Part shown: positions 3,716 to 64,000 of the stretch, one piece after another | Position numbering within the stretch: the first letter of the stretch is position 1 | How the letters are laid out: every line of letters begins with the position of its first letter | From: Phycisphaeraceae bacterium | Lineage (GTDB): Bacteria > Planctomycetota > Phycisphaerae > Phycisphaerales > SM1A02 | Direction: 5' to 3' | Assembly (NCBI GenBank): GCA_019636755.1 | Contig: JAHBWZ010000003.1 | Coordinates: forward strand, 62,001 to 126,000 | Length of the DNA stretch: 64,000 bases | Program-made: the position numbers and the translations under genes | The notes under the pieces: model-generated | Seen by the model: only the letters and a program-made list of their open reading frames with translations | The model's database searches: none | What the model was told of the DNA's origin: nothing

Positions 3716-5050
3716 ATGCAGATCCGCCGGACCCCGCCCGGCGCGCCGGCATGCCGCGCACCGGGCTCGACGGTGCGCGTGGCGGCATGGTTGTGGCTGG
3801 TCGTGCTTCCGCTGGCCGGGTGCGATGGCCGCGCCGAGCCCCCGGCGCGCGAACCCCGGAACGCGCTGACCAGGCCGGCGCCGTCCGCGTCCGCGGCGCC
3901 CGAGGCCGCGCTGACTCCACCGGCGCCGGAGCCAGCGCCATCACCGCGCATTCGCGAGGGTGAGGGCACCACCGCCATGCCCGAGGACCCGCTGCACGCG
4001 GCGCCGCCTGGACTCGCCGCAGGTCCCGTGCCGACAGACCCGGCCGACGCGGTCGCGCGGAGCGGTGGCCGGGATGCGACGGACGAGCGTGATCCCGGCA
4101 GCGGCGCGCCGCAGCACCATGATCCGGATGATCCGGATGATCAGAGTGATCCGGGTGATCCGAAGGATCCGGGCGCAACCGTTGTGCCGGCATCGCCTCC
4201 GCGCCCGCCGGTGGACGTGGTGTCCACCGAGGCTCCGATCGATGAACCGCCCGCGCCAGCCGATGAGCGAGCGGCCGACGCGGACACATCCCGCGCGCCC
4301 TCCACGCTCCCCGGGTCGGCGGCCGCGGCCGTGGATCCATGGGTCCACGCCGCGCTGGGTCGCATCGAACGGGCGGCCGACGGGATCCAGGCCCTGGTGG
4401 CGCGGCTCCGGCTGCGGGAGATCAATGACTTCACGGGACAGACGACACTGCGCCTCGGCCGGCTGATCTACCGGCTGGGTGCCGAGGGCGAGCCGCGCTC
4501 GCTCTCAGTGGTGTTCGATCAGCGCATCGAAGGCAGCCGGATGCGCCCGCAGGCGACGCGGTACACGTTCAGCGGCCGCTGGTTCGTCGAGATCGACGGC
4601 GAGCAGCGCCTGTTCTCCCGCGCGGAGATCGTCGCGGCGGGAGAGACGTTCGATCCGCTGGCCATCGGGCGCGGACCGGTGCCCATCCCGGTCGGACAGC
4701 CGCGATCGGAGGTCCTTCGTCGCTTCACCGTGACGCGCGCGGAGGCACCGGATGATCCGCTGCTTCAGCAGTTCCGCGGTCGGGACGATGCCTATGTCCT
4801 GGACCTCCGCCCGAGGCCCGGTGCGGCCGAGGCGCGCGACGTGCAGTCCCTGATCCTGGTCTATGACGCGGCGACGGACCTGCCGCTCGGCGTGCACCTG
4901 ACAACGCCGTCGGGCGATGTGCGCACCGCGCTGCTGGAGGACCTGGAGCAGCGCGTGGCGCTCACCGCGGAGGAACTCGCGATGCTCTCCGTGGAGCCAC
5001 CCACCGAGCCCGGCTGGATCGTGACCGATCGACCCTTCGGGGACCAGTGA
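3716..5050 (+). CDS. Lipoprotein with acidic/proline-rich linker and LolA-like C-terminal domain
   Basis: A 444-residue predicted lipoprotein. A signal sequence (VAAWLWLVVLPLAGC) ends in the lipobox LAGC at about residue 37. Residues ~40-205 are low-complexity, rich in Pro, Ala and Asp, and include the DPD/DPG repeat encoded at 4121-4174. From about residue 215 a globular region begins (RIERAADGIQALVARLRLRE, then VVFDQRIEGSRMRP) that resembles the LolA/outer-membrane-lipoprotein-sorting fold: short strands and a final phrase about fitted or reported values (LILVYDAATDLPLGVHL). The function is unknown and the LolA resemblance is tentative. GGAAGGAGG lies 6 nt before the ATG. The gene abuts the HD hydrolase gene and precedes a secreted metalloprotease on the same strand. 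Confidence 0.72.
   Translation: MQIRRTPPGAPACRAPGSTVRVAAWLWLVVLPLAGCDGRAEPPAREPRNALTRPAPSASAAPEAALTPPAPEPAPSPRIREGEGTTAMPEDPLHAAPPGLAAGPVPTDPADAVARSGGRDATDERDPGSGAPQHHDPDDPDDQSDPGDPKDPGATVVPASPPRPPVDVVSTEAPIDEPPAPADERAADADTSRAPSTLPGSAAAAVDPWVHAALGRIERAADGIQALVARLRLREINDFTGQTTLRLGRLIYRLGAEGEPRSLSVVFDQRIEGSRMRPQATRYTFSGRWFVEIDGEQRLFSRAEIVAAGETFDPLAIGRGPVPIPVGQPRSEVLRRFTVTRAEAPDDPLLQQFRGRDDAYVLDLRPRPGAAEARDVQSLILVYDAATDLPLGVHLTTPSGDVRTALLEDLEQRVALTAEELAMLSVEPPTEPGWIVTDRPFGDQ
4121..4174 (+). repeat. Six 9-bp tandem units inside the lipoprotein linker
   Basis: Six consecutive 9-bp units with consensus gatccggat encode DPD/DPG/DPK tripeptides. The repeat keeps the frame, so copy-number change would only lengthen or shorten the linker. 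Confidence 0.8.
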
Positions 5051-5081: not shown

Positions 5082-7823
5082 ATGCGTCGAAGCGCACACC
5101 TGATCGGATGGCTTCCGTTCCTCGCGGTCGTCGTCGCCCTGCTGCACACGGCGGACCGGGCGGCGGCGCAGTCGGGCGCGCTGGTGCCGGAGCGGTTCCA
5201 GCCGGCCGAGCCGGTGCGCGACCTTCTCTCCGCGCCGTGGCTCACCGATGAGGAGCGGCGCCGGCTGCGCGTCTTCCACGGACTCTGGAGCGCGGATGAC
5301 CTGACGGACCCGGTGCTGTACGCGCAGGCGATGATCGAGGTCGGCCGGTGGGACGACCCCGTCTTCGGCGACGACCGCATCCCGGCGCTGCTGCGCGCCG
5401 AGGCATTCCGGCAGCGCGGCGAACCGGAGCACGCGCTCGGACTTGCCGGAAGCGCCGCGACGCCGACGGCGGCGCGCATCCGTGTCGAGGCGCTGATCGA
5501 CCTGGGCCGTCGCGACGACGCGCTGGCCGAGGTGCGGCGGTCGCTGGCGCAGGTCCGCACGGGCCGCCGTCCCGCGGCCGGTCGCGATGAGCCGGACCCG
5601 GAAGAGACCGTGGAGGCGGTCCGCCTGCTCGCCATCGGGGCGCGGCTCGGACCGCAGGGTCCGGAGGAGTACCGGCGCATGATGGAACTCCTGGCGATGG
5701 TGCACCAGGAGATCGATCGGCTGCACTGGCCGGCGCTGCTGACCGAGGGCCTCATCCTGGCGGAGAAGCACAACCGGGTCCTCGCCGCGCAGGCGCTGCA
5801 CCAGGCGATGGCCCTGCATCCGCGCTGCAGTGCCGGCTGGCGGGCGCTCGGACGACTGGCGATCGAGTCGTTCGACTTCGACGGGGCGCAGCGCGCCATC
5901 GCTGCCCTGCGACGACTGGACCCGGATCATCCGTATGCGCTGCTCCTGCAGGCGGAGCAGCGCCTCGTGCAGGGCGATCCGGACGAAGCGGCCGAGGCCG
6001 TCCGGGATCTCCTTGGGCGGTACCCGGGCCATCGTGAAGCGCTCGCCTTCGCCGCGGCCGCGCGGGCGGTGGCCTTCGACGAGCCGGGCACCCTCCAGGC
6101 GCTGGCGCGGGCGGACGGCGTCCAGCCGGGCGCGCCGGACGCATGGCTCCTCGCCGGGCGGATGCTCTCGCTGTTCCGGCAGTACGACTGGGCCTCCGAT
6201 CTGCTGCGCGAGGCGATCCGGCGCGCGCCGACCTGGTCTGCGCCGCGCATCGAACTGGGGCTCCTCGGCATGCAGGCGGCTCGGGACGATGAAGCACTCG
6301 CGCAGCTTCGCATCGCGATCGAGTCGGATCCGTTCAACAAGCGCGCGGCGAACAGCCTGGCGCTGCTGGAGGAGATCGCCGCCTGGGAGGAGCGGCGGAC
6401 GGATCACTTCATCATCCGCTACCGCCCGGGCGTCGATCGCGTGCTCGTCGATCTCATGGAGGAACCGCTGGAGGAGATCCACCGCATCGTCGGCGGGCGC
6501 TTCCGCATCACGCCGGAGCGGCGGACGATCATCGAGGTGATGCCGGACCATGAACGGTTCTCGGTCCGGATCGCCGGCATGCCGGATATCCACACCATCG
6601 CGGCGTGCACCGGGCCGATCATCGCGATGGAGGTTCCGCGCGAGGGTCGTCCCGCGATGCACCGCGGGGTCTTCGACTGGGAGCGTGTCCTTCGCCACGA
6701 GTACACACACACGATCACGCTGGAGGCGACGCTCAACCGGATTCCGCACTGGCTGACCGAGGCGGCGGCGGTGGCGATGGAGCTGGCACCACGGACGATG
6801 CAGACCTGCCTCATGCTGGCGGGCGCGCTGGAGGAGGGCTCGCTCTTCACGCTGGAGAACATCAAGTGGGGGTTCGTGCGGCCGCGGCGGCCGGGTGACC
6901 GGTCGAAGGCCTACGCGCAGTCACACTGGATGTTCGAGTTCATGGAGGAGCGGTTCGGCCCCGATGCGATCATCGACCTGCTGACCGAGTACGCGCACGG
7001 GCGACGGGACGTGGAGGCGTTCGGCAGCGCGCTCGGCATCGCACCGGATGCGTTCTACCGGGAGTTCATCGCCTGGGCGGGCGAGCAGGTCATGGCATGG
7101 GGCCTGGCGCCGGAGCCGTCGTTCACGGCCCTGACCGACGAGGTGCGCATCGCCGATCCGGACCTCCACACGGCGCTGGTGGCGTCGCGCCAGGCGCGGC
7201 TCGATGCGATCGCGGAGGCGATCGTGCGATCGATCGGACGGCCGCTGAATCCCGGCGAACGACCGCTGGAGGCAATCGACTGGCCGGACCTGGTGCGACC
7301 GCCTGTCGACATCACGCCCGCGCTCATCGCATCCTGGCGGGCGCGGTTCCCCGATCACCCGGAGATCCTGCTGCTCGATGTGCGGCGCCGCCTGGACTCC
7401 GGTGAGCGCGGCGATGACGTCCTGGAGGACCTGCGCCGCCTGACCACGCTCCGCCCCGTGGACGACTGGCCGCACCGGCGACTCGCCGAGATCCTGCTTG
7501 CCGGCAATGACCCGTCAGCAGCGATCCCGCACCTGGAGGCGCTGGACGTCCGCGAAGAGCGATCGGCGATCTTCGCGCGGGAACTGTCACGCCTGTATCG
7601 GCGCCAGGGTGACCTGGATCGAGCGTATGTGAAGGCGCTGCGGGCGGTGTTCATCGATCCGTACCGCGCCGAGTTCCGCGAGACCGCGGCCGCGATCGCG
7701 GTGCAGGCGCGGCGATGGTCCGAGGCGCGGCGCCACCTGGAGGCGCTCATCCTCCTGGAGCCCGGTCGGGAGCAGCATCGGCTCCGCCTGGAGCGCGTCA
7801 ATGAGCTTTCCGCGGCCCCGTGA
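5082..7823 (+). CDS. Secreted TPR protein with gluzincin (peptidase MA-like) metalloprotease domain
   Basis: A 913-residue protein with an N-terminal signal peptide (hydrophobic WLPFLAVVVALLHTADRAAAQ). Residues ~90-450 form tetratricopeptide-type helical repeats. A zinc metallopeptidase domain follows, with HEYTH at residues 539-543 and a second-helix Glu in HWLTEAAAVAMEL, the usual arrangement of the peptidase MA/gluzincin family. More TPR-like helices fill residues ~745-913. It probably acts outside the cytoplasm on protein substrates; the target is unknown. An SD-like GGAG precedes the ATG (gaggagtttcga). Its 3' end overlaps the convergent SDR gene by 26 bp. It follows the lipoprotein gene after 31 nt and may share its transcript. 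Confidence 0.82.
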   Translation: MRRSAHLIGWLPFLAVVVALLHTADRAAAQSGALVPERFQPAEPVRDLLSAPWLTDEERRRLRVFHGLWSADDLTDPVLYAQAMIEVGRWDDPVFGDDRIPALLRAEAFRQRGEPEHALGLAGSAATPTAARIRVEALIDLGRRDDALAEVRRSLAQVRTGRRPAAGRDEPDPEETVEAVRLLAIGARLGPQGPEEYRRMMELLAMVHQEIDRLHWPALLTEGLILAEKHNRVLAAQALHQAMALHPRCSAGWRALGRLAIESFDFDGAQRAIAALRRLDPDHPYALLLQAEQRLVQGDPDEAAEAVRDLLGRYPGHREALAFAAAARAVAFDEPGTLQALARADGVQPGAPDAWLLAGRMLSLFRQYDWASDLLREAIRRAPTWSAPRIELGLLGMQAARDDEALAQLRIAIESDPFNKRAANSLALLEEIAAWEERRTDHFIIRYRPGVDRVLVDLMEEPLEEIHRIVGGRFRITPERRTIIEVMPDHERFSVRIAGMPDIHTIAACTGPIIAMEVPREGRPAMHRGVFDWERVLRHEYTHTITLEATLNRIPHWLTEAAAVAMELAPRTMQTCLMLAGALEEGSLFTLENIKWGFVRPRRPGDRSKAYAQSHWMFEFMEERFGPDAIIDLLTEYAHGRRDVEAFGSALGIAPDAFYREFIAWAGEQVMAWGLAPEPSFTALTDEVRIADPDLHTALVASRQARLDAIAEAIVRSIGRPLNPGERPLEAIDWPDLVRPPVDITPALIASWRARFPDHPEILLLDVRRRLDSGERGDDVLEDLRRLTTLRPVDDWPHRRLAEILLAGNDPSAAIPHLEALDVREERSAIFARELSRLYRRQGDLDRAYVKALRAVFIDPYRAEFRETAAAIAVQARRWSEARRHLEALILLEPGREQHRLRLERVNELSAAP

Positions 7824-8649
7824 CGGCGCCGGCGCGGCGCGCGAACATGGCGATCGCACGATCGCCGAGTCCCGGGGCGATGGTCATGCCGGCAGCGGCC
7901 GCCCGCGCGACCACGCTGGTCCAGACTTCGGGTCGGGGTCGGCGCAGGCAGCGGACGACCGCGCGGGCGACGCGATCAGACGACTGCACGAACGGGCGCG
8001 GGACACGGTCCGAGAGCGACGGTGCCCCGGCGCCGCCGGACTGCCGATCCACCACGTCGCCGAACTCGGTCACCGTGGTGATCGGGTGGACGCTGGCGAC
8101 CTCGATGCCGGTGCCGAGCAGTTCGAGCCGCATCGCCCCGCACCACGCATCCTGCGCTGCCTTCGTCGCGGCATACGCGCCGTAGCAGGGGAGGGAGAAC
8201 TTGGAGAGGCACGAGGAGCACATGAGCAGGTGGCCGGCGTCTCCTCGCTCCAGCAGACGCCGGCCCGCTTCGCGGAGCAGCGACGCCGCGGCAAAGAAGT
8301 TGACGTCGAAGATGCGACGGATGTCCGCGTCCGTCTCGTCGACGGCGCGCCGCGCGTAGCCGTAGCCTGCGTTCGCGAACACCGCGTCCAGCCTGCCGTC
8401 ATGCGCCCGCTCCGCGGCATCCAGGATCGCGGTCGATGCCTCCGGTGCCGCGACGTCGATGACCAGCACGTCCGCGCGCCCGCGCGATGTCCGGTTGATC
8501 CCGTCCGCAAGCGCCTGCAGCCGGTCCAGCCGCCGCGCCACGAGAAGCACGGACATGCCCGTGCCGGCGCACGCCCGCGCCGTCGCGGCGCCGATCCCGC
8601 TGCTGGCGCCGGTCACGATGATGGTCCGGCCGTCGAGCGGGCGTGCCAT
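7798..8649 (-). CDS. Short-chain dehydrogenase/reductase (SDR)
   Basis: A 283-residue classical SDR. The NAD(P)-binding motif TGASSGIG is at residues 13-20, NAG is in FANAGYGYA, the catalytic Ser is in LMCSSCLSKF and the YxxxK pair is in YAATKAA. The family oxidises or reduces alcohol/carbonyl substrates; the sequence does not show which. The start chosen is ATG 8649, which lies 6 nt downstream of a TACATT box and has no Shine-Dalgarno, a pattern repeated elsewhere in the window. The C-terminal codons overlap the end of the convergent TPR protease gene. The gene stands alone on its strand, with about 400 bp between it and the pil operon. Confidence 0.88.
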   Translation of the reverse strand: MARPLDGRTIIVTGASSGIGAATARACAGTGMSVLLVARRLDRLQALADGINRTSRGRADVLVIDVAAPEASTAILDAAERAHDGRLDAVFANAGYGYARRAVDETDADIRRIFDVNFFAAASLLREAGRRLLERGDAGHLLMCSSCLSKFSLPCYGAYAATKAAQDAWCGAMRLELLGTGIEVASVHPITTVTEFGDVVDRQSGGAGAPSLSDRVPRPFVQSSDRVARAVVRCLRRPRPEVWTSVVARAAAAGMTIAPGLGDRAIAMFARRAGAVTGPRKAH

Positions 8650-11055: not shown

Positions 11056-11793
11056 TCACTTCGGCGAGTGCACGTAGAGCGTGACGGTGACCGTGACGCC
11101 GAGCGCCTTGTCGGTCGCCTCCAGCTCGACCGACCCGGTGGCGATCGATTTCACGACGAACTCCGCATCGCTGCGCGGCGCGCGGATGGCGTCGCCGACG
11201 TTGCGGATCTCGTTCTCGATGACGGCAAGCGGTGTCGCGCCGCCGAGGATCGACCGGACCCGGAGTGCCTCACCGGCGGCCCTGAGTTCGCCACGGCGCT
11301 TCTCCTGGAGCTGTTCGAGGCTCGGGCCGCGCGGGCCCGTGGCCGTCGGCCGTTCGGCCGGGGCGGGTCGATCCAGGTCGATGGCGGCGATGATGAACGG
11401 GTTGCGATGGACGTCCTCGGGCCGGACCTGGCGATCGGTCCGGTCATCCTTCAGGGCGCTGAGGATCTCGTCGTCCGTGCGCAGGATCGCGGCGCGTCCG
11501 GTCCCCGGCTCACCGCCGAGCGTCTGCCGGAGGAAGTTCTCCACCGTACTCTCCACCTCCCGGTCGAAGCCGGTGGCGGCGGTGAGCTGCGCCAGTTTCC
11601 GCATCGAGAAGAGTCCGCCGGCGGCAACCACGACGACGATGGCGATCAGGATGGCGCCGGCATTGACCTTCCGCCGGCGCCCGGCGGTCGCAAGCGGATC
11701 GATGGCGGCATCGTCGGAGAACTCGCCGGTGCCGAGCGGCATCGTACGGGTGTCGTCGCCGGTGTCCGTGTCATTGACGTTCCTGAGTTTCAT
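11056..11793 (-). CDS. PilP/GspC-like inner-membrane protein
   Basis: A 245-residue bitopic membrane protein. A polar N-terminus of ~45 residues is followed by one membrane segment (AGAILIAIVVVVAAGGLF) and a soluble part. The last ~70 residues contain ALRVRSILGGATPLAVIENE, then VKSIATGSVELE, which have the spacing of the homology-region fold of PilP/GspC (an 'l.G....p.AiIe' strand pair followed by 'v..I....V.L'). It also sits in the pilP position, between pilO and the ATPase gene. In the family this protein links the inner-membrane PilNO ring to the secretin. Similarity is weak, so position is the main support. Confidence 0.6.
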   Translation of the reverse strand: MKLRNVNDTDTGDDTRTMPLGTGEFSDDAAIDPLATAGRRRKVNAGAILIAIVVVVAAGGLFSMRKLAQLTAATGFDREVESTVENFLRQTLGGEPGTGRAAILRTDDEILSALKDDRTDRQVRPEDVHRNPFIIAAIDLDRPAPAERPTATGPRGPSLEQLQEKRRGELRAAGEALRVRSILGGATPLAVIENEIRNVGDAIRAPRSDAEFVVKSIATGSVELEATDKALGVTVTVTLYVHSPK

Positions 11794-59539: not shown

Positions 59540-60232
59540 TCAGTGACTCATCGAGCAATCCGAGCGCACCGACCGCACCGACATCGCGGATCTCCAGCCA
59601 TCACGTGGACGCCCGGATCGGCGCCGTCGCCGACCGGTGACCGCGCTCCACCCGGCCAGGAGCGCCATCGCGGCGCCGCCGGGTCCGGGCACCAGCGCGT
59701 GGTGCGTGAACATGATGTCGTCGATCGCAAGCACCGCGTCCGACGGGTCCCACAGGACGATCCGGTCGAACGGGATGGTCGAGAGGATCCCGCCGAAGTT
59801 GGGGATGAGGCCCCAGAACGGGTACTCGCCGATCATGTCCGTCCCGCTGAAGAGTCGTACATAGACCGTCCCGAAGTAGTTGTCGAACGCGAACGCCGTG
59901 ATCGGCGTGTCGAAGCGCAGGTCCGCGACGCCCGTGAAGGTCTTCATGCCCTGAAGATCGTGGAACGCCGTGTCGTGCGTGATGAACTCCGTCGGTCCCG
60001 CGAAGATGAGCCCGTGCGACTCGTGGTAGTGGTCGTCCAGCCACGTGCCGACGGGGTGCTCCGTGAAGGTGATCACCTCCACGTCTGTCGTCTGGCTCAG
60101 CCAGAGATCCTTCTGGTCCGTGTACGTGATCGCGCCGGCCGCGCTCTGCGAGAGTACGGCGAGAAGCACCGGCAGCGCGAGGAGCCGGTGCATGGCGGTG
60201 ATGGTGAAGATGGTCATGGTGATCTGGTGCAT
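59540..60232 (-). CDS. Secreted protein with PEP-CTERM-like C-terminus
   Basis: 230 residues from ATG 60232 (ATG 60193 is also possible and gives a normal signal peptide). The signal peptide is LLALPVLLAVLSQSAAGAIT. The domain has VEVITFTEHPVGTWLDDHYHESHGLIFAGP and FAFDNYFGTVYVRLF and is like the one in the dockerin protein at 60704-61459 (FTEVPMWTWLSDHYNA). The C-terminal VPGPGGAAMALLAGW plus an Arg run resembles a PEP-CTERM sorting signal, but ~25 residues follow the Arg cluster, which is odd. Function unknown; it may bind surface polymers. Downstream is a gene-free stretch. Confidence 0.7.
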   Translation of the reverse strand: MHQITMTIFTITAMHRLLALPVLLAVLSQSAAGAITYTDQKDLWLSQTTDVEVITFTEHPVGTWLDDHYHESHGLIFAGPTEFITHDTAFHDLQGMKTFTGVADLRFDTPITAFAFDNYFGTVYVRLFSGTDMIGEYPFWGLIPNFGGILSTIPFDRIVLWDPSDAVLAIDDIMFTHHALVPGPGGAAMALLAGWSAVTGRRRRRSGRPRDGWRSAMSVRSVRSDCSMSH

Positions 60233-60703
60233 GGGTGTGTCCCGTCCTGGTCTCCGTCCTGGTCTCGATGGCTTGCCGCGGTCCCGCCGACCCCGGATCG
60301 CCCGCCCACAGATACGCCGTCCCCGGCACGGCCCGGCGCGGATTCGCCGGAGTCCTCGTCGAGTGACCCCGGGGATCGAGAAGTGGCCCGCACCCCGGCC
60401 GCTGCGGCGCCCGAAATCTTCCCCGCCCCGCGCGGGGCGGCGGAGGCGTTGGACGTCGTGCGCTTCCGCTCCCCCTTTCGGAGGAGGATTGTTTCTGTCG
60501 CTCGCTTTCCACGAGTTCCACTGCGCTCCCTTCGACTGCGCTCAGGGCTACCGACCCTGGCTCCTTCGGAGCCGGAGGCGGGCGCATCGCGGCGCAGGCG
60601 CCGGATGCACGCCCATGGTCCCGACGGCGCCACGGTCAGTACCCGCCAGTGGCGGATGTGGGACACGCGCTCGCACACGCAGCCGCGCACCGCCACCCTG
60701 CAC
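60233..60703. other. Gene-free stretch carrying copy 1 of the dispersed repeat
   Basis: About 470 bp between two left-reading secreted-protein genes, with the dispersed element at 60374-60640. Confidence 0.55.
60374..60640 (+). repeat. Dispersed intergenic element, copy 1 (267 bp)
   Basis: Matches 63691-63919 along its length, starting gatcgag and ending ccatggtcccgacggcg...cacggtcagt. It contains an Arg-like GCCCCGCGCGGGGC palindrome, the word CTTCGACTGCGCTCAGG (60530-60546) and a triloop hairpin (60559-60573, GGCTCC-TTC-GGAGCC). It has ~38 more bp than copy 2. Confidence 0.85.
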
Positions 60704-61459
60704 TCACCCTGTCCACGTGTAGATCACCGCCACGATGTCCGCCAGGTCCACCACGCCGTTGCCGTCCAGGTCCGCTGCCGCGCAGCCGGGCAGAAGATCC
60801 TGGCTCGGGCACGGCCCGAACCACGCCAGCACGAGCAGCAGGTCCATGAAGTCCACCACGCCGTCGCCGTTGACATCCGCCGGCACCGGATCGATGACAC
60901 GCTGGAGATGGATGTCGTCGACGCTGATGCCCCAGCCGTCTCGCCGGAGCCGCACACGATTGAACGGAACGTCCGTGATGAAGCCGACGAAGCGCTCGTC
61001 CGGACCTGGCCCGGTCACCTGCGGACTGTGCAGGTACGTCTGGAACAGCAGCCGATTCCCGTCGTAGAACCACGCCTGCATCTCCTGCCTGGTGTGCATC
61101 GCGACGCCATGGACGGATGCGTCGAGTTCCATGATGATCTCCACGTGGCCTGACACGCCCACCGTGTCATTCAGGTAGTTCCCCTGCACAACCACCTGGT
61201 CGTACCCGTCCGTGAACCAGACGCCGATGGCGTTGTAGTGATCACTGAGCCAGGTCCACATCGGCACCTCCGTGAACGTCATCGTGACGATGTCGTTGTC
61301 CATCGCATCGGACCAGGCGGCAAATGCCTTCTGATGGTGACCCCGGAAGACGCAGTATCCGAGGTCGAAACACGTATGCACGACCGCACCGTCACCATGG
61401 GCGCGTGAGGTCGCGAGGACCGCCGTCATGAGCGCGAGCAGTCGGAGGGATGCGTTCAT
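60704..61459 (-). CDS. Secreted protein with dockerin-like C-terminus
   Basis: 251 residues. Signal peptide LLALMTAVLATSRAHG. The domain has VTMTFTEVPMWTWLSDHYNAIGVWFTDG and PFNRVRLRRDGWGISVDDIHL, the same beta-sandwich type as the product of 59540-60232. Dockerin-like repeats at the C-terminus: DVNGDGVVDFMDLLLVLAWF and DLDGNGVVDLADIVAVIYTW. Its ATG overlaps the stop of the HAF-repeat gene as ATGA (61456-61459), and GGAGG lies upstream. Substrate unknown. Confidence 0.8.
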   Translation of the reverse strand: MNASLRLLALMTAVLATSRAHGDGAVVHTCFDLGYCVFRGHHQKAFAAWSDAMDNDIVTMTFTEVPMWTWLSDHYNAIGVWFTDGYDQVVVQGNYLNDTVGVSGHVEIIMELDASVHGVAMHTRQEMQAWFYDGNRLLFQTYLHSPQVTGPGPDERFVGFITDVPFNRVRLRRDGWGISVDDIHLQRVIDPVPADVNGDGVVDFMDLLLVLAWFGPCPSQDLLPGCAAADLDGNGVVDLADIVAVIYTWTG

Positions 61460-63219
61460 TCCACCACCTCCTCCGCCTGTGCCGCGGCAAGTGCCGCATA
61501 GAGGCTGAACACCGCATCCAGGCCTGCGGCATCCGCAAGGCATTCGTCCAGTTCGGCCTCTCCCAGCAGTCCGGACGAGATCGCCGCCGCGCCGCCGGAT
61601 TCCAGCCAGATGTGCAGCAGTTCCATCTCTCCAGGTCCCATCATGAGACCCTGGCTGCAGGTCCCGTAGTTGGCGATGACCAGCGCCAGATCCTCGAAGG
61701 TGACGACGCAGTCGCCGTTGTTGACGTCGAACGCCTCGCGGAGCGCGGACCATCCGCACGCGGAGAGGTCGGCGAACCAGAGCGCCGGGTCGTTGAGGTC
61801 TTCATACGCCCACGGCGCGCCGCCGGTCGAGGACCAGCGCACCGCGGCCTCCATCTCGATGTTCCGCCCGACGATCAGCCGGCCCTCCGGCGACGCGAGG
61901 AAGTCGTTGATGGCGTTCGCGTATCCCTGGTCAGGCAGTCCGAGGGTGAACGGCACCGGCAGGACCTGCGGCGTCGTCTGCACCGGATCGAGCCAGAAGA
62001 CCGGGACTTCACGGCAGGAGTAGTGGGTGAATCCCGGGATCGTCGTCTCCGCCGCGGCGCCCCCGACCGCGTAGGTGTCGGCGCCGGCCATGCCGCGGAT
62101 GAACTGGAGCGTGTCGCGGATGTCCGGCGGGGCGTTGAAGAAGAACGGCAGCTGCGTCATCCATGGCTGCCATCCGCCCTGACCACCAAGCCAGGCGACC
62201 CCGCGACTGCCGGGCAGCGGCTCGGTGTACGGGACACTCATCTGCCCGATGCCGATGGTGCTGGACGGGAAGCGGCGCCACTGACACAGGAGGAAGTTGA
62301 TCTCGCACGCATCCAGCGCCCCGCCGCCGACGCGACCACCGTTGCCGGCCGCGATGTACGGGGCCGGCACAGCCATCGCGATCGTGTCCGGGATCTGCTG
62401 ATGCGGGCTGTCCAGCCGCGTTTCACCGCGGGTGTGGCTCTCCCATACGAACGCCCTGGGCGGGACGTCGATCCCCGACCCGCATCGCGGGTTGGCCAGG
62501 ATGCCCACCACCCGCAGGTCATCGCCCGACGTCTCGCTGATCGCCCATGCATCCGACCATGCTGGTGACCCTCCCTGGAACGAGAGGACCTGCATGCGCT
62601 GGATGGTCCAGGCGGGAGGATCCGGTGAGAAGAGGCCCGCAACCGGTGCCCAGACAAATGCCTCGCCGTAGTGTGGCGTCGACAGTCGATCGTCGGCCGA
62701 GACCGCGCCCGTGATGAACGACTGGTCATTGATGTCCCGCGCCACGCTTGCCCACGGCATCAGCGAACCCTCCTCGCCCTCATGGCGGAGCACATGGAGC
62801 GGCCCGGCGGCGTAGAGCACGCCGGCGAACGTGACATCCCACGGCGTCCAGAAGAACGCCCGCGGAACGGGCACGATGCCTCGCCCCGGGATCTCGAAGT
62901 CCACGTGCACAAATCCCACCACGTGTCCGCTGCCGTTGATGGCCAGTCCTCTGGACTGTGCACCAGGCGCGGTGCTGATCCGCCCCAGATCGATGAGGTG
63001 ATGCGACGGCGGCGGCGTCTGTGAGACGGCGCGCGAGGTGGCAGAGAGACAGGCCGTCATTCCCACGATCGCCGTCAGCGCGCTGAGCGTGCACCGTGAA
63101 GTTCGGCATCGGTAGAATTCAGATCGCGGATCGCGGATCGCGGATCGCGGATCGCGGATCGCGGTGCTGCGCGCCCGTCGGCGCGCCCGGTGGTCAGTCA
63201 GGTCCGTCTGTACTGTCAT
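61456..63219 (-). CDS. Secreted HAF-repeat protein with a single dockerin-like repeat
   Basis: 587 residues from ATG 63219. A signal-like stretch (LTAIVGMTACLSATSRAVSQ) lies ~45 residues in; between it and the ATG is a segment encoded by six 7-bp repeats (IRDPRSA), so the start is not secure. The body has HAF-type repeats (DLGRISTAPGAQSRGLAING, GHVVGFVHVD; later INDQSFITGAVS), which form a beta-propeller-like secreted domain. A late repeat DVNNGDCVVTFEDLALVIANYG is one half of a dockerin unit, and a helical C-terminus follows. Coupled to the next gene through ATGA. Confidence 0.75.
   Translation of the reverse strand: MTVQTDLTDHRARRRARSTAIRDPRSAIRDPRSEFYRCRTSRCTLSALTAIVGMTACLSATSRAVSQTPPPSHHLIDLGRISTAPGAQSRGLAINGSGHVVGFVHVDFEIPGRGIVPVPRAFFWTPWDVTFAGVLYAAGPLHVLRHEGEEGSLMPWASVARDINDQSFITGAVSADDRLSTPHYGEAFVWAPVAGLFSPDPPAWTIQRMQVLSFQGGSPAWSDAWAISETSGDDLRVVGILANPRCGSGIDVPPRAFVWESHTRGETRLDSPHQQIPDTIAMAVPAPYIAAGNGGRVGGGALDACEINFLLCQWRRFPSSTIGIGQMSVPYTEPLPGSRGVAWLGGQGGWQPWMTQLPFFFNAPPDIRDTLQFIRGMAGADTYAVGGAAAETTIPGFTHYSCREVPVFWLDPVQTTPQVLPVPFTLGLPDQGYANAINDFLASPEGRLIVGRNIEMEAAVRWSSTGGAPWAYEDLNDPALWFADLSACGWSALREAFDVNNGDCVVTFEDLALVIANYGTCSQGLMMGPGEMELLHIWLESGGAAAISSGLLGEAELDECLADAAGLDAVFSLYAALAAAQAEEVVE
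63122..63163 (+). repeat. 7-bp tandem repeat, six units
   Basis: Exactly six copies of gatcgcg. Because 7 is not a multiple of 3, each change in copy number shifts the reading frame of the HAF gene's 5' part. Confidence 0.9.
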
Positions 63220-63362
63220 GGATGAAGACTCCGTGAAACGGTGCCTCGCTGTACTTCTGCCCGTTCCCGACCGCCGGGATCGGGCGTTCCGCGCGTCGGC
63301 CCGATGCCGGGCGCGGTCGATGATGCCGCCACCTGCCGTCCCGGGCACGACGGCCATGCCCG

Positions 63363-63419
63363 ACCCCCGGACCCCCGGACCCCCGGACCCCGGGGACCCC
63401 CGGACCCCCGGACCCCGGC
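63363..63419 (+). repeat. 8-bp GC-only minisatellite
   Basis: About seven units of acccccgg with one variant (accccgggg), in the gene-free region upstream of the HAF gene. Confidence 0.85.
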
Positions 63420-63690
63420 CCCCGACCTCCGACCCCGGAACCCTGCATCCGCGATCCGACCGCCGGCGCCGTCGCACGTGACCGACCCGGATCCCGCGGC
63501 CGATGGACCCCGCCAGAGACAGATATGCCCATCCGGCGCCGACTCTGCGCAGAATCTCAGAATTTTTTCCGGGGCCGCCGGGCGCGTCATCGGGCGCCCG
63601 GGATCGGGCGGGCGCTCGGACAGGCACTCGCACGCAGCGGCCGCAGCCTCGAGCAGCGAGCGCGTGTCCGGTACAGGGCGGCGGGGGGGA

Positions 63691-63919
63691 GATCGAGATG
63701 AGGCCCGCACCCCGGCCGCTGCGGCGCCGAAATCTTCCCCGCCCCGCGAGTGGCGGCGGAGGCGTTCGACGTCGTGCGTTTCCGCTCCCCCCTGCGGGCG
63801 AGGATTGTTCCTGTCGCTCGCTGTCCACGAGTTCCGCTGCGCTGCACTCGTGGCTACCGACCGTGGCCCCTTCGGGGCCCAAGGCGCGCGCCCATGGTCC
63901 CGACGGCGCCACGGTCAGT
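63691..63919 (+). repeat. Dispersed intergenic element, copy 2 (229 bp)
   Basis: Copy of 60374-60640. The triloop hairpin is GGCCCC-TTC-GGGGCC (63865-63879). An additional stem CCACGAG...CTCGTGG (63825-63853) with a 15-nt loop is present. It lacks the CTTCGACTGCGCTCAGG word of copy 1. Confidence 0.85.
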
Positions 63920-64000
63920 CGCGCCATTCACTTCGGGGCCTCTCTCCGAACGCAGATGAATTCACCACGAAGTGCACGAAGGACACGAAGGCGTGCATGA

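Follow-up and report, generated by a model that had tools for sequence, protein, structure and literature searches.

Two related intergenic elements lie near one end of a 64,000-nucleotide stretch of a Phycisphaeraceae bacterium genome (Planctomycetota; contig JAHBWZ010000003.1, positions 62,001 to 126,000; hereafter the window), and both are very probably partial units of a GTAG-tagged family of repetitive extragenic palindromes or bacterial interspersed mosaic elements (REP/BIME). REP-type repeats are folded GTAG palindromes thought to be spread by a transposase that acts on single-stranded DNA. Our identification is based on palindromes that have GTAG at their foot and occur as inverted pairs, which is the REP/BIME signature. 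The structural features of such repeats that we tested are all present, namely a palindrome with the tag, pairs of units in inverse orientation, dispersal outside genes and, in relatives, a REPtron, and the elements most likely work like REP/BIME units. We describe here the anatomy of the repeat, its dispersal, its conservation across the class and its linkage to Y1 transposases in relatives. What an earlier first-pass annotation could only vaguely call a structured intergenic element thereby becomes a defined class whose enzyme partner can be tested.

Anatomy and dispersal of the tagged repeat

The first-pass annotation had proposed two copies of a structured element of ~230-270 bp. The two copies are real and align end to end (60374-60640 with 63691-63919; 207 of 229 positions identical, 90%; internal length differences of 1, 10 and 27 nt), with a local alignment score of 270 against a maximum of 34 among 200 dinucleotide shuffles. 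They are not stand-alone elements, and the unit itself had to be redrawn, as the repeat is larger and mosaic and the genome holds full units at other sites. On the minus strand the main copies all follow one order, in which a triloop hairpin (H0) precedes GGTCGGTAGCC and one of three stem-loops follows it. GGTCGGTAGCC is invariant ahead of all three, and its GTAG stands directly at the stem foot. Copy 2 has the type A stem-loop (CCACGAGT...ACTCGTGG) and copy 1 has type B (CCCTGAGCGCAGTCGAAGGG); the third is type C (CCGCCAGTACGCCG...CGGCGTACTGGCGG).

Full units are imperfect palindromes of ~260 bp, in which the triloop hairpin, GGTCGGTAG, a stem-loop and spacer hairpins are followed by the inverse order of the same. 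Type A or B occupies one end and an inverted type C the other, with the spacer hairpins H2 and H3 between them. Such inverted dimers, with GTAG outside, were found on contig C10 (three in tandem) and at C12:497 kb, and the copy C7a is built alike, except that its second tag is degenerate. Inverted termini of ~27 bp are present on full units only. One of the C10 units folds at z = -10.2 on the plus strand and -11.6 on the minus strand relative to shuffles. Both window copies are half-units without type C, each with one palindrome and a degenerate inverted head. Copy 1 retains a type A 3' arm without its partner, so type B looks like another palindrome that replaced the type A 5' arm.

Further copies, which the first-pass annotation had proposed looking for, were found in the genome itself (4.11 Mb, 20 contigs). 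With copy 1 as BLAST query we obtained 24 matches, and a further search added a partial unit at C12:86 kb, giving ~17 placements in total. None of the placements examined overlaps an open reading frame of coding-like codon composition; the family is dispersed and extragenic, and truncation points differ between copies.

Type B contains the word that the first-pass annotation linked to repeats of other genomes (CTTCGACTGCGCTCAGG). It occurs once in the window and is indeed present in many phyla, and our literature search for it and its variants found no mention. The type B stem-loop contains the widespread repeat CCTGAGCGCAGTCGAAGG; in 123 instances from other genomes, however, the bases at the tag position of that repeat are GTCA (46), CCTG (23), TTCG (9) and others, and the 20 most frequent ones listed do not include GTAG. 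We therefore rejected the word as a sign of relatedness. In its own right, CCTGAGCGCAGTCGAAGG is mostly preceded by a few fixed tetramers in many phyla (L056-L173) and looks like a separate tagged palindrome family.

The palindrome family in relatives and its link to Y1 transposases

Searches of 40 relatives with the whole element gave only short partial matches, and the family thus stayed hidden until the palindrome alone was sought. Using a type A pattern (GTAGCCRYGRGYNNAGCGNAGCGNNRCYCRYGG, one mismatch allowed) against 397 genomes of the class, we found the palindrome GTAGCCRYGRGY...RCYCRYGG in 41 genomes, this one included, against none for the reversed pattern used as control; the family is dispersed in the 40 others. 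Viral contigs and plasmids gave no match. When one copy per genome was compared, stem pairs varied between A-T, G-C and G-T and between C-G and T-A, but as the pattern permits R and Y at the varying positions, this variation alone is not decisive. The triloop hairpin lies outside the search pattern. In 24 of 28 other genomes it was found 5-10 nt ahead of the tag, compared with 8.7% of shuffles, and the relatives' triloop stems differ while their pairing is kept (CGCCCC/GGGGCG, ACCCC/GGGGT, TTATCCC/GGGATAA), with loops that are mostly GNA.

A Y1_Tnp search of 151 genomes of the order gave many matches, from which 30 were taken as loci (mostly the best-scoring per genome, not a random sample). 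Family palindromes were found at 19 of these 30 Y1-transposase loci, mostly on both sides of the gene, inverted and with tags outward. Over 870 kb of other genomes, mainly of other phyla, the same palindrome expression matched once, by chance and outside the family. In one relative (G233) the tag is GTTG in place of GTAG, both in the two palindromes that flank the transposase and in every dispersed copy listed. With this family, tags and transposases can be compared over many genomes.

Surroundings of the window copies

Coordinates of the features are given in the table below. The first-pass annotation had placed both copies beside secreted-protein genes, which is right for the window, where each lies upstream of a secreted-type gene on the same strand; paralogues of copy 2 likewise lie upstream of related genes. 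This neighbourhood is partly a product of whole-cassette duplication, and other copies adjoin a gene that we read by eye as ispF or genes without evident link to secretion.

Table. Features of the two window copies (positions within the window).
Feature	Position	Strand	Remark
Copy 1, type B, truncated half-unit of the mosaic GTAG repeat	60371..60650	-	between two secreted-type genes
Spacer hairpin H3, copy 1	60423..60440	-	
Spacer hairpin H2, copy 1	60469..60487	-	GNRA-type loop GAAA
Orphan type A 3' arm AACTCGTGG, copy 1	60509..60517	-	
Type B palindrome CCCTGAGCGCAGTCGAAGGG, copy 1	60528..60547	-	directly after GTAG, in place of type A 5' arm
GTAG tag, copy 1	60548..60551	-	inside GGTCGGTAGCC, 60546-60556
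Triloop hairpin H0, copy 1	60559..60573	-	GGCTCC-GAA-GGAGCC; same position in 24/28 other genomes
Extra hairpin GCATCCGGCGCCTGCGCCGCGATGC, copy 1	60584..60608	-	also in one C7 copy; absent from copy 2
Degenerate inverted head unit GGTCCCGACGGCGCCACGGTCAGT, copy 1	60617..60640	+	adjoins H0
Copy 2, type A, mosaic GTAG repeat	63688..63926	-	~0.5 kb upstream of gene 61456-63219
Spacer hairpin H3, copy 2	63739..63756	-	
Spacer hairpin H2, copy 2	63785..63802	-	
Type A palindrome CCACGAGT...ACTCGTGG, copy 2	63825..63853	-	directly after GTAG
GTAG tag, copy 2	63854..63857	-	inside GGTCGGTAGCC, 63852-63862
Triloop hairpin H0, copy 2	63865..63879	-	GGCCCC-GAA-GGGGCC; T-A to C-G change
Degenerate inverted head unit GGTCCCGACGGCGCCACGGTCAGT, copy 2	63896..63919	+	adjoins H0

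The secreted-type genes of the window (59540-61459) recur in several duplicated cassettes on contigs C7, C13 and C20. Dockerin-like matches, with scores below curated cut-offs, would suit a planctomycete host. An octamer tandem repeat (GACCCCCG, 63354-63423) lies upstream of a secreted-type gene, with similar runs upstream of paralogues on other contigs. A seven-base tandem repeat, GATCGCG (63122-63165), lies close to the start of gene 61456-63219, and the N-terminal region of this gene may therefore vary in length.

At the C20 gene A/B junction, which is paralogous to the site of copy 1, the spacer holds a version of another dispersed hairpin (L039 ~11590-11640). This strong hairpin, close to GCGCACGCCAATGGGGGCTGTCGCCCCCCTTGGCGTGCGC, is also found at intergenic sites at L039 ~6850-6892, 7230-7265 and 7553-7585 and at L037 ~7945-7990.

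Weighing the alternatives

The first-pass annotation had read a compensatory change between the two copies as pressure to keep a stem. The hairpins that it quoted are exact (plus strand, GGCTCC-TTC-GGAGCC at 60559-60573 and GGCCCC-TTC-GGGGCC at 63865-63879), and a T-A pair in one is C-G in the other. Across 13 copies and 28 stem pairs of this genome, 93.3% of cells pair, and the pair in question is T-A in eight copies, C-G in four and broken in one (T/C in C7a). The covariation score exceeds nearly all shuffles. A two-sided change, however, was found at only one of the 28 pairs, and at least one such pair arose in 422 of 500 shuffles, so covariation within the genome is weak. Many copies without covariation, the outcome said in advance to count against that reading, is largely what this genome gives; the case for structural selection from it alone is thin, and pressure to keep the stem is supported across species rather than by the two copies alone. 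Short palindromes can also gain both arm changes in one template-switching event. Quasi-palindrome correction of this kind during replication, which concerns the covariation only and is compatible with a REP/BIME identity, is a realistic though somewhat doubtful source of the single two-sided pair; as both arms would change in one event, the compensatory change would then be uninformative on selection. Alone, it does not explain why 24 of 28 genomes keep a hairpin, with widely varying stem sequences, at 5-10 nt from the tag.

The position and shared strand of the window copies, together with the paralogues of copy 2 upstream of related genes and H2 loops that are GCGA, GCAA, GAAA or GTGA in several aligned copies (all GNRA), would suit a structured regulatory RNA or leader kept for its RNA fold upstream of secreted-protein genes. 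We consider this very unlikely, given that an Rfam scan of the window gave no match, that one of 28 pairs covaries, that truncation occurs at varied points, that three units stand in a tandem array, that other copies have unrelated neighbours and that the palindrome is linked to transposase genes in relatives. Pairing kept between genomes is explained equally by folding of single-stranded DNA, and the RNA reading is not needed. Between a folded RNA and a non-autonomous mobile element, which the first-pass annotation had left side by side, dispersed inverted GTAG palindromes that flank Y1 genes in relatives favour the mobile element, and RNA as the main function is not supported.

Passive hitch-hiking, in which the hairpin region spread solely by segmental duplication of secreted-gene cassettes and never by transposition, has a real component. 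Copy 2 shares 0.7-1.2 kb, flank included, with C13, C7 and C15, C7 and C13 share 3.4 kb at 95% with secreted-type genes included, and many copies lie close to contig ends; copy 2 has also moved within duplicated cassettes. The suspicion of a recent duplication with shared flanks thus holds for copy 2 and other contigs. It fails for copy 1 and copy 2, whose common sequence ends at the element borders. As the copies on C10 and at C12:398 kb, C20:153 kb and C12:14.8 kb also lack the cassette flanks, and 40 other genomes have dispersed copies of the family, hitch-hiking is very improbable as the sole route. The inverted termini of full units could also suggest a miniature inverted-repeat transposable element of a classical insertion sequence, of the DDE type and bounded by terminal inverted repeats, but the tag and hairpin anatomy, the linkage to Y1 transposases and the lack of target duplications evident without a systematic scan make this highly improbable.

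Several results weigh against a REP/BIME identity. The ~17 placements are far below the copy number usual for REPs, which is >100, a usual rather than defining feature (PMC2817692); many copies lie close to contig ends, as expected where repeats break an assembly, and an undercount is thus possible. We found no clean empty site, since the paralogous C20 junction, which we considered as a candidate and rejected, is occupied by a different ~90 bp spacer with another hairpin. Of the two traces that the first-pass annotation had suggested checking, terminal repeats exist on full units as described, and target duplications were not evident, without a systematic scan. Type B folds poorly (z = +1.2). 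Five transposase proteins of the relatives score 16.8-30.2 bits or give no match with NF047646, the model for REP-associated tyrosine transposases (RAYT, TnpA-REP), and none reaches its cut-off of 80 bits. In this genome we found no cognate transposase for the GTAG units: the sole Y1 gene detected (C17:82 kb) has its own perfect 23-bp inverted repeats, unrelated to the units, and was rejected as their partner, and a relative's REP-flanked transposase used as query found no convincing homologue. The present copies are therefore probably orphaned, and the cognate enzyme may have been lost or may lie inside an assembly gap; REPtrons can be missing from a species (PMC3733652). The C17 inverted repeats (GCCGTCATGGCCACACCCGTCGG; L055, G000:C17:79000-86000, 2970-2992 and 4574-4596) have further motif copies on C16, and the locus is TIRtron-like, TIRtron being the name for a Y1 gene between inverted repeats (PMC3733652).

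Under the REP/BIME identification, mobilisation would have proceeded by analogy with IS200/IS605 elements, a mechanism that we think somewhat favoured. The palindrome would fold in single-stranded DNA, as on the lagging-strand template; a Y1 (HUH tyrosine) transposase would recognise hairpin and tag, cut the units and rejoin them elsewhere between genes; and orphaned copies would by now be carried chiefly by recombination and as passengers of duplicated gene cassettes. We infer that the repeats were mobilised by the relatives' Y1 enzymes and that the enzyme has been lost from this genome.

With a mild twist, the relatives' enzymes look IS200/IS605-type rather than like classical RAYT. All five score 71-84 bits with NF033573 (IS200; cut-off 55 bits), and the solved structures related to them by sequence include the IS608 transposase and several entries labelled only 'transposase'. 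We tentatively propose, as a serious possibility, that the class uses an IS200/IS605-type transposase in a REPtron layout, that its GTAG palindromes carry a co-conserved triloop hairpin, and that recognition may involve two hairpins, with the tag between them, as one unit. If so, tag variants that match between transposase locus and dispersed copies (GTTG in G233, GTCG in G353) would directly show guide-tag co-evolution. An IS200-like partner is also relevant to the unsettled relationship between IS200 and REP transposases.

Comparison with known systems

GTAG tags, inverted dimers and Planctomycetes hosts, including Rhodopirellula baltica, have been published for REPs (Di Nocera 2013, PMC3733652). 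By description, our repeats resemble these GTAG REP/BIMEs in the tag at the palindrome foot, the stem of ~8 bp, the inverted dimers with tags outside, the structured spacers, the intergenic location, the heterodimers with different stems and the several stem types per genome. They differ in their ~17 placements and in the extra triloop hairpin 5-10 nt ahead of the tag. In E. coli, GTAG-tagged REPs are cut by TnpA-REP in vitro (PMC8266576). That REPtron shares with the present family a tag with an imperfect palindrome and, in relatives, a Y1 gene flanked by palindromes, whereas the relatives' transposases that we examined score as IS200/IS605 and not as REP_Tyr. A third comparison is with class 3 TnpA-Y1 loci, which are found mainly in Planctomycetes, Acidobacteria and Proteobacteria (PMC6006769). 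The hairpin foot reported for class 3 is CnGA, unlike the GTAG, GTTG or GTCG found here, but both have an IS200-related Y1 enzyme and several flanking repeated hairpins, and both are intermediate in kind between an insertion sequence and a REPtron.

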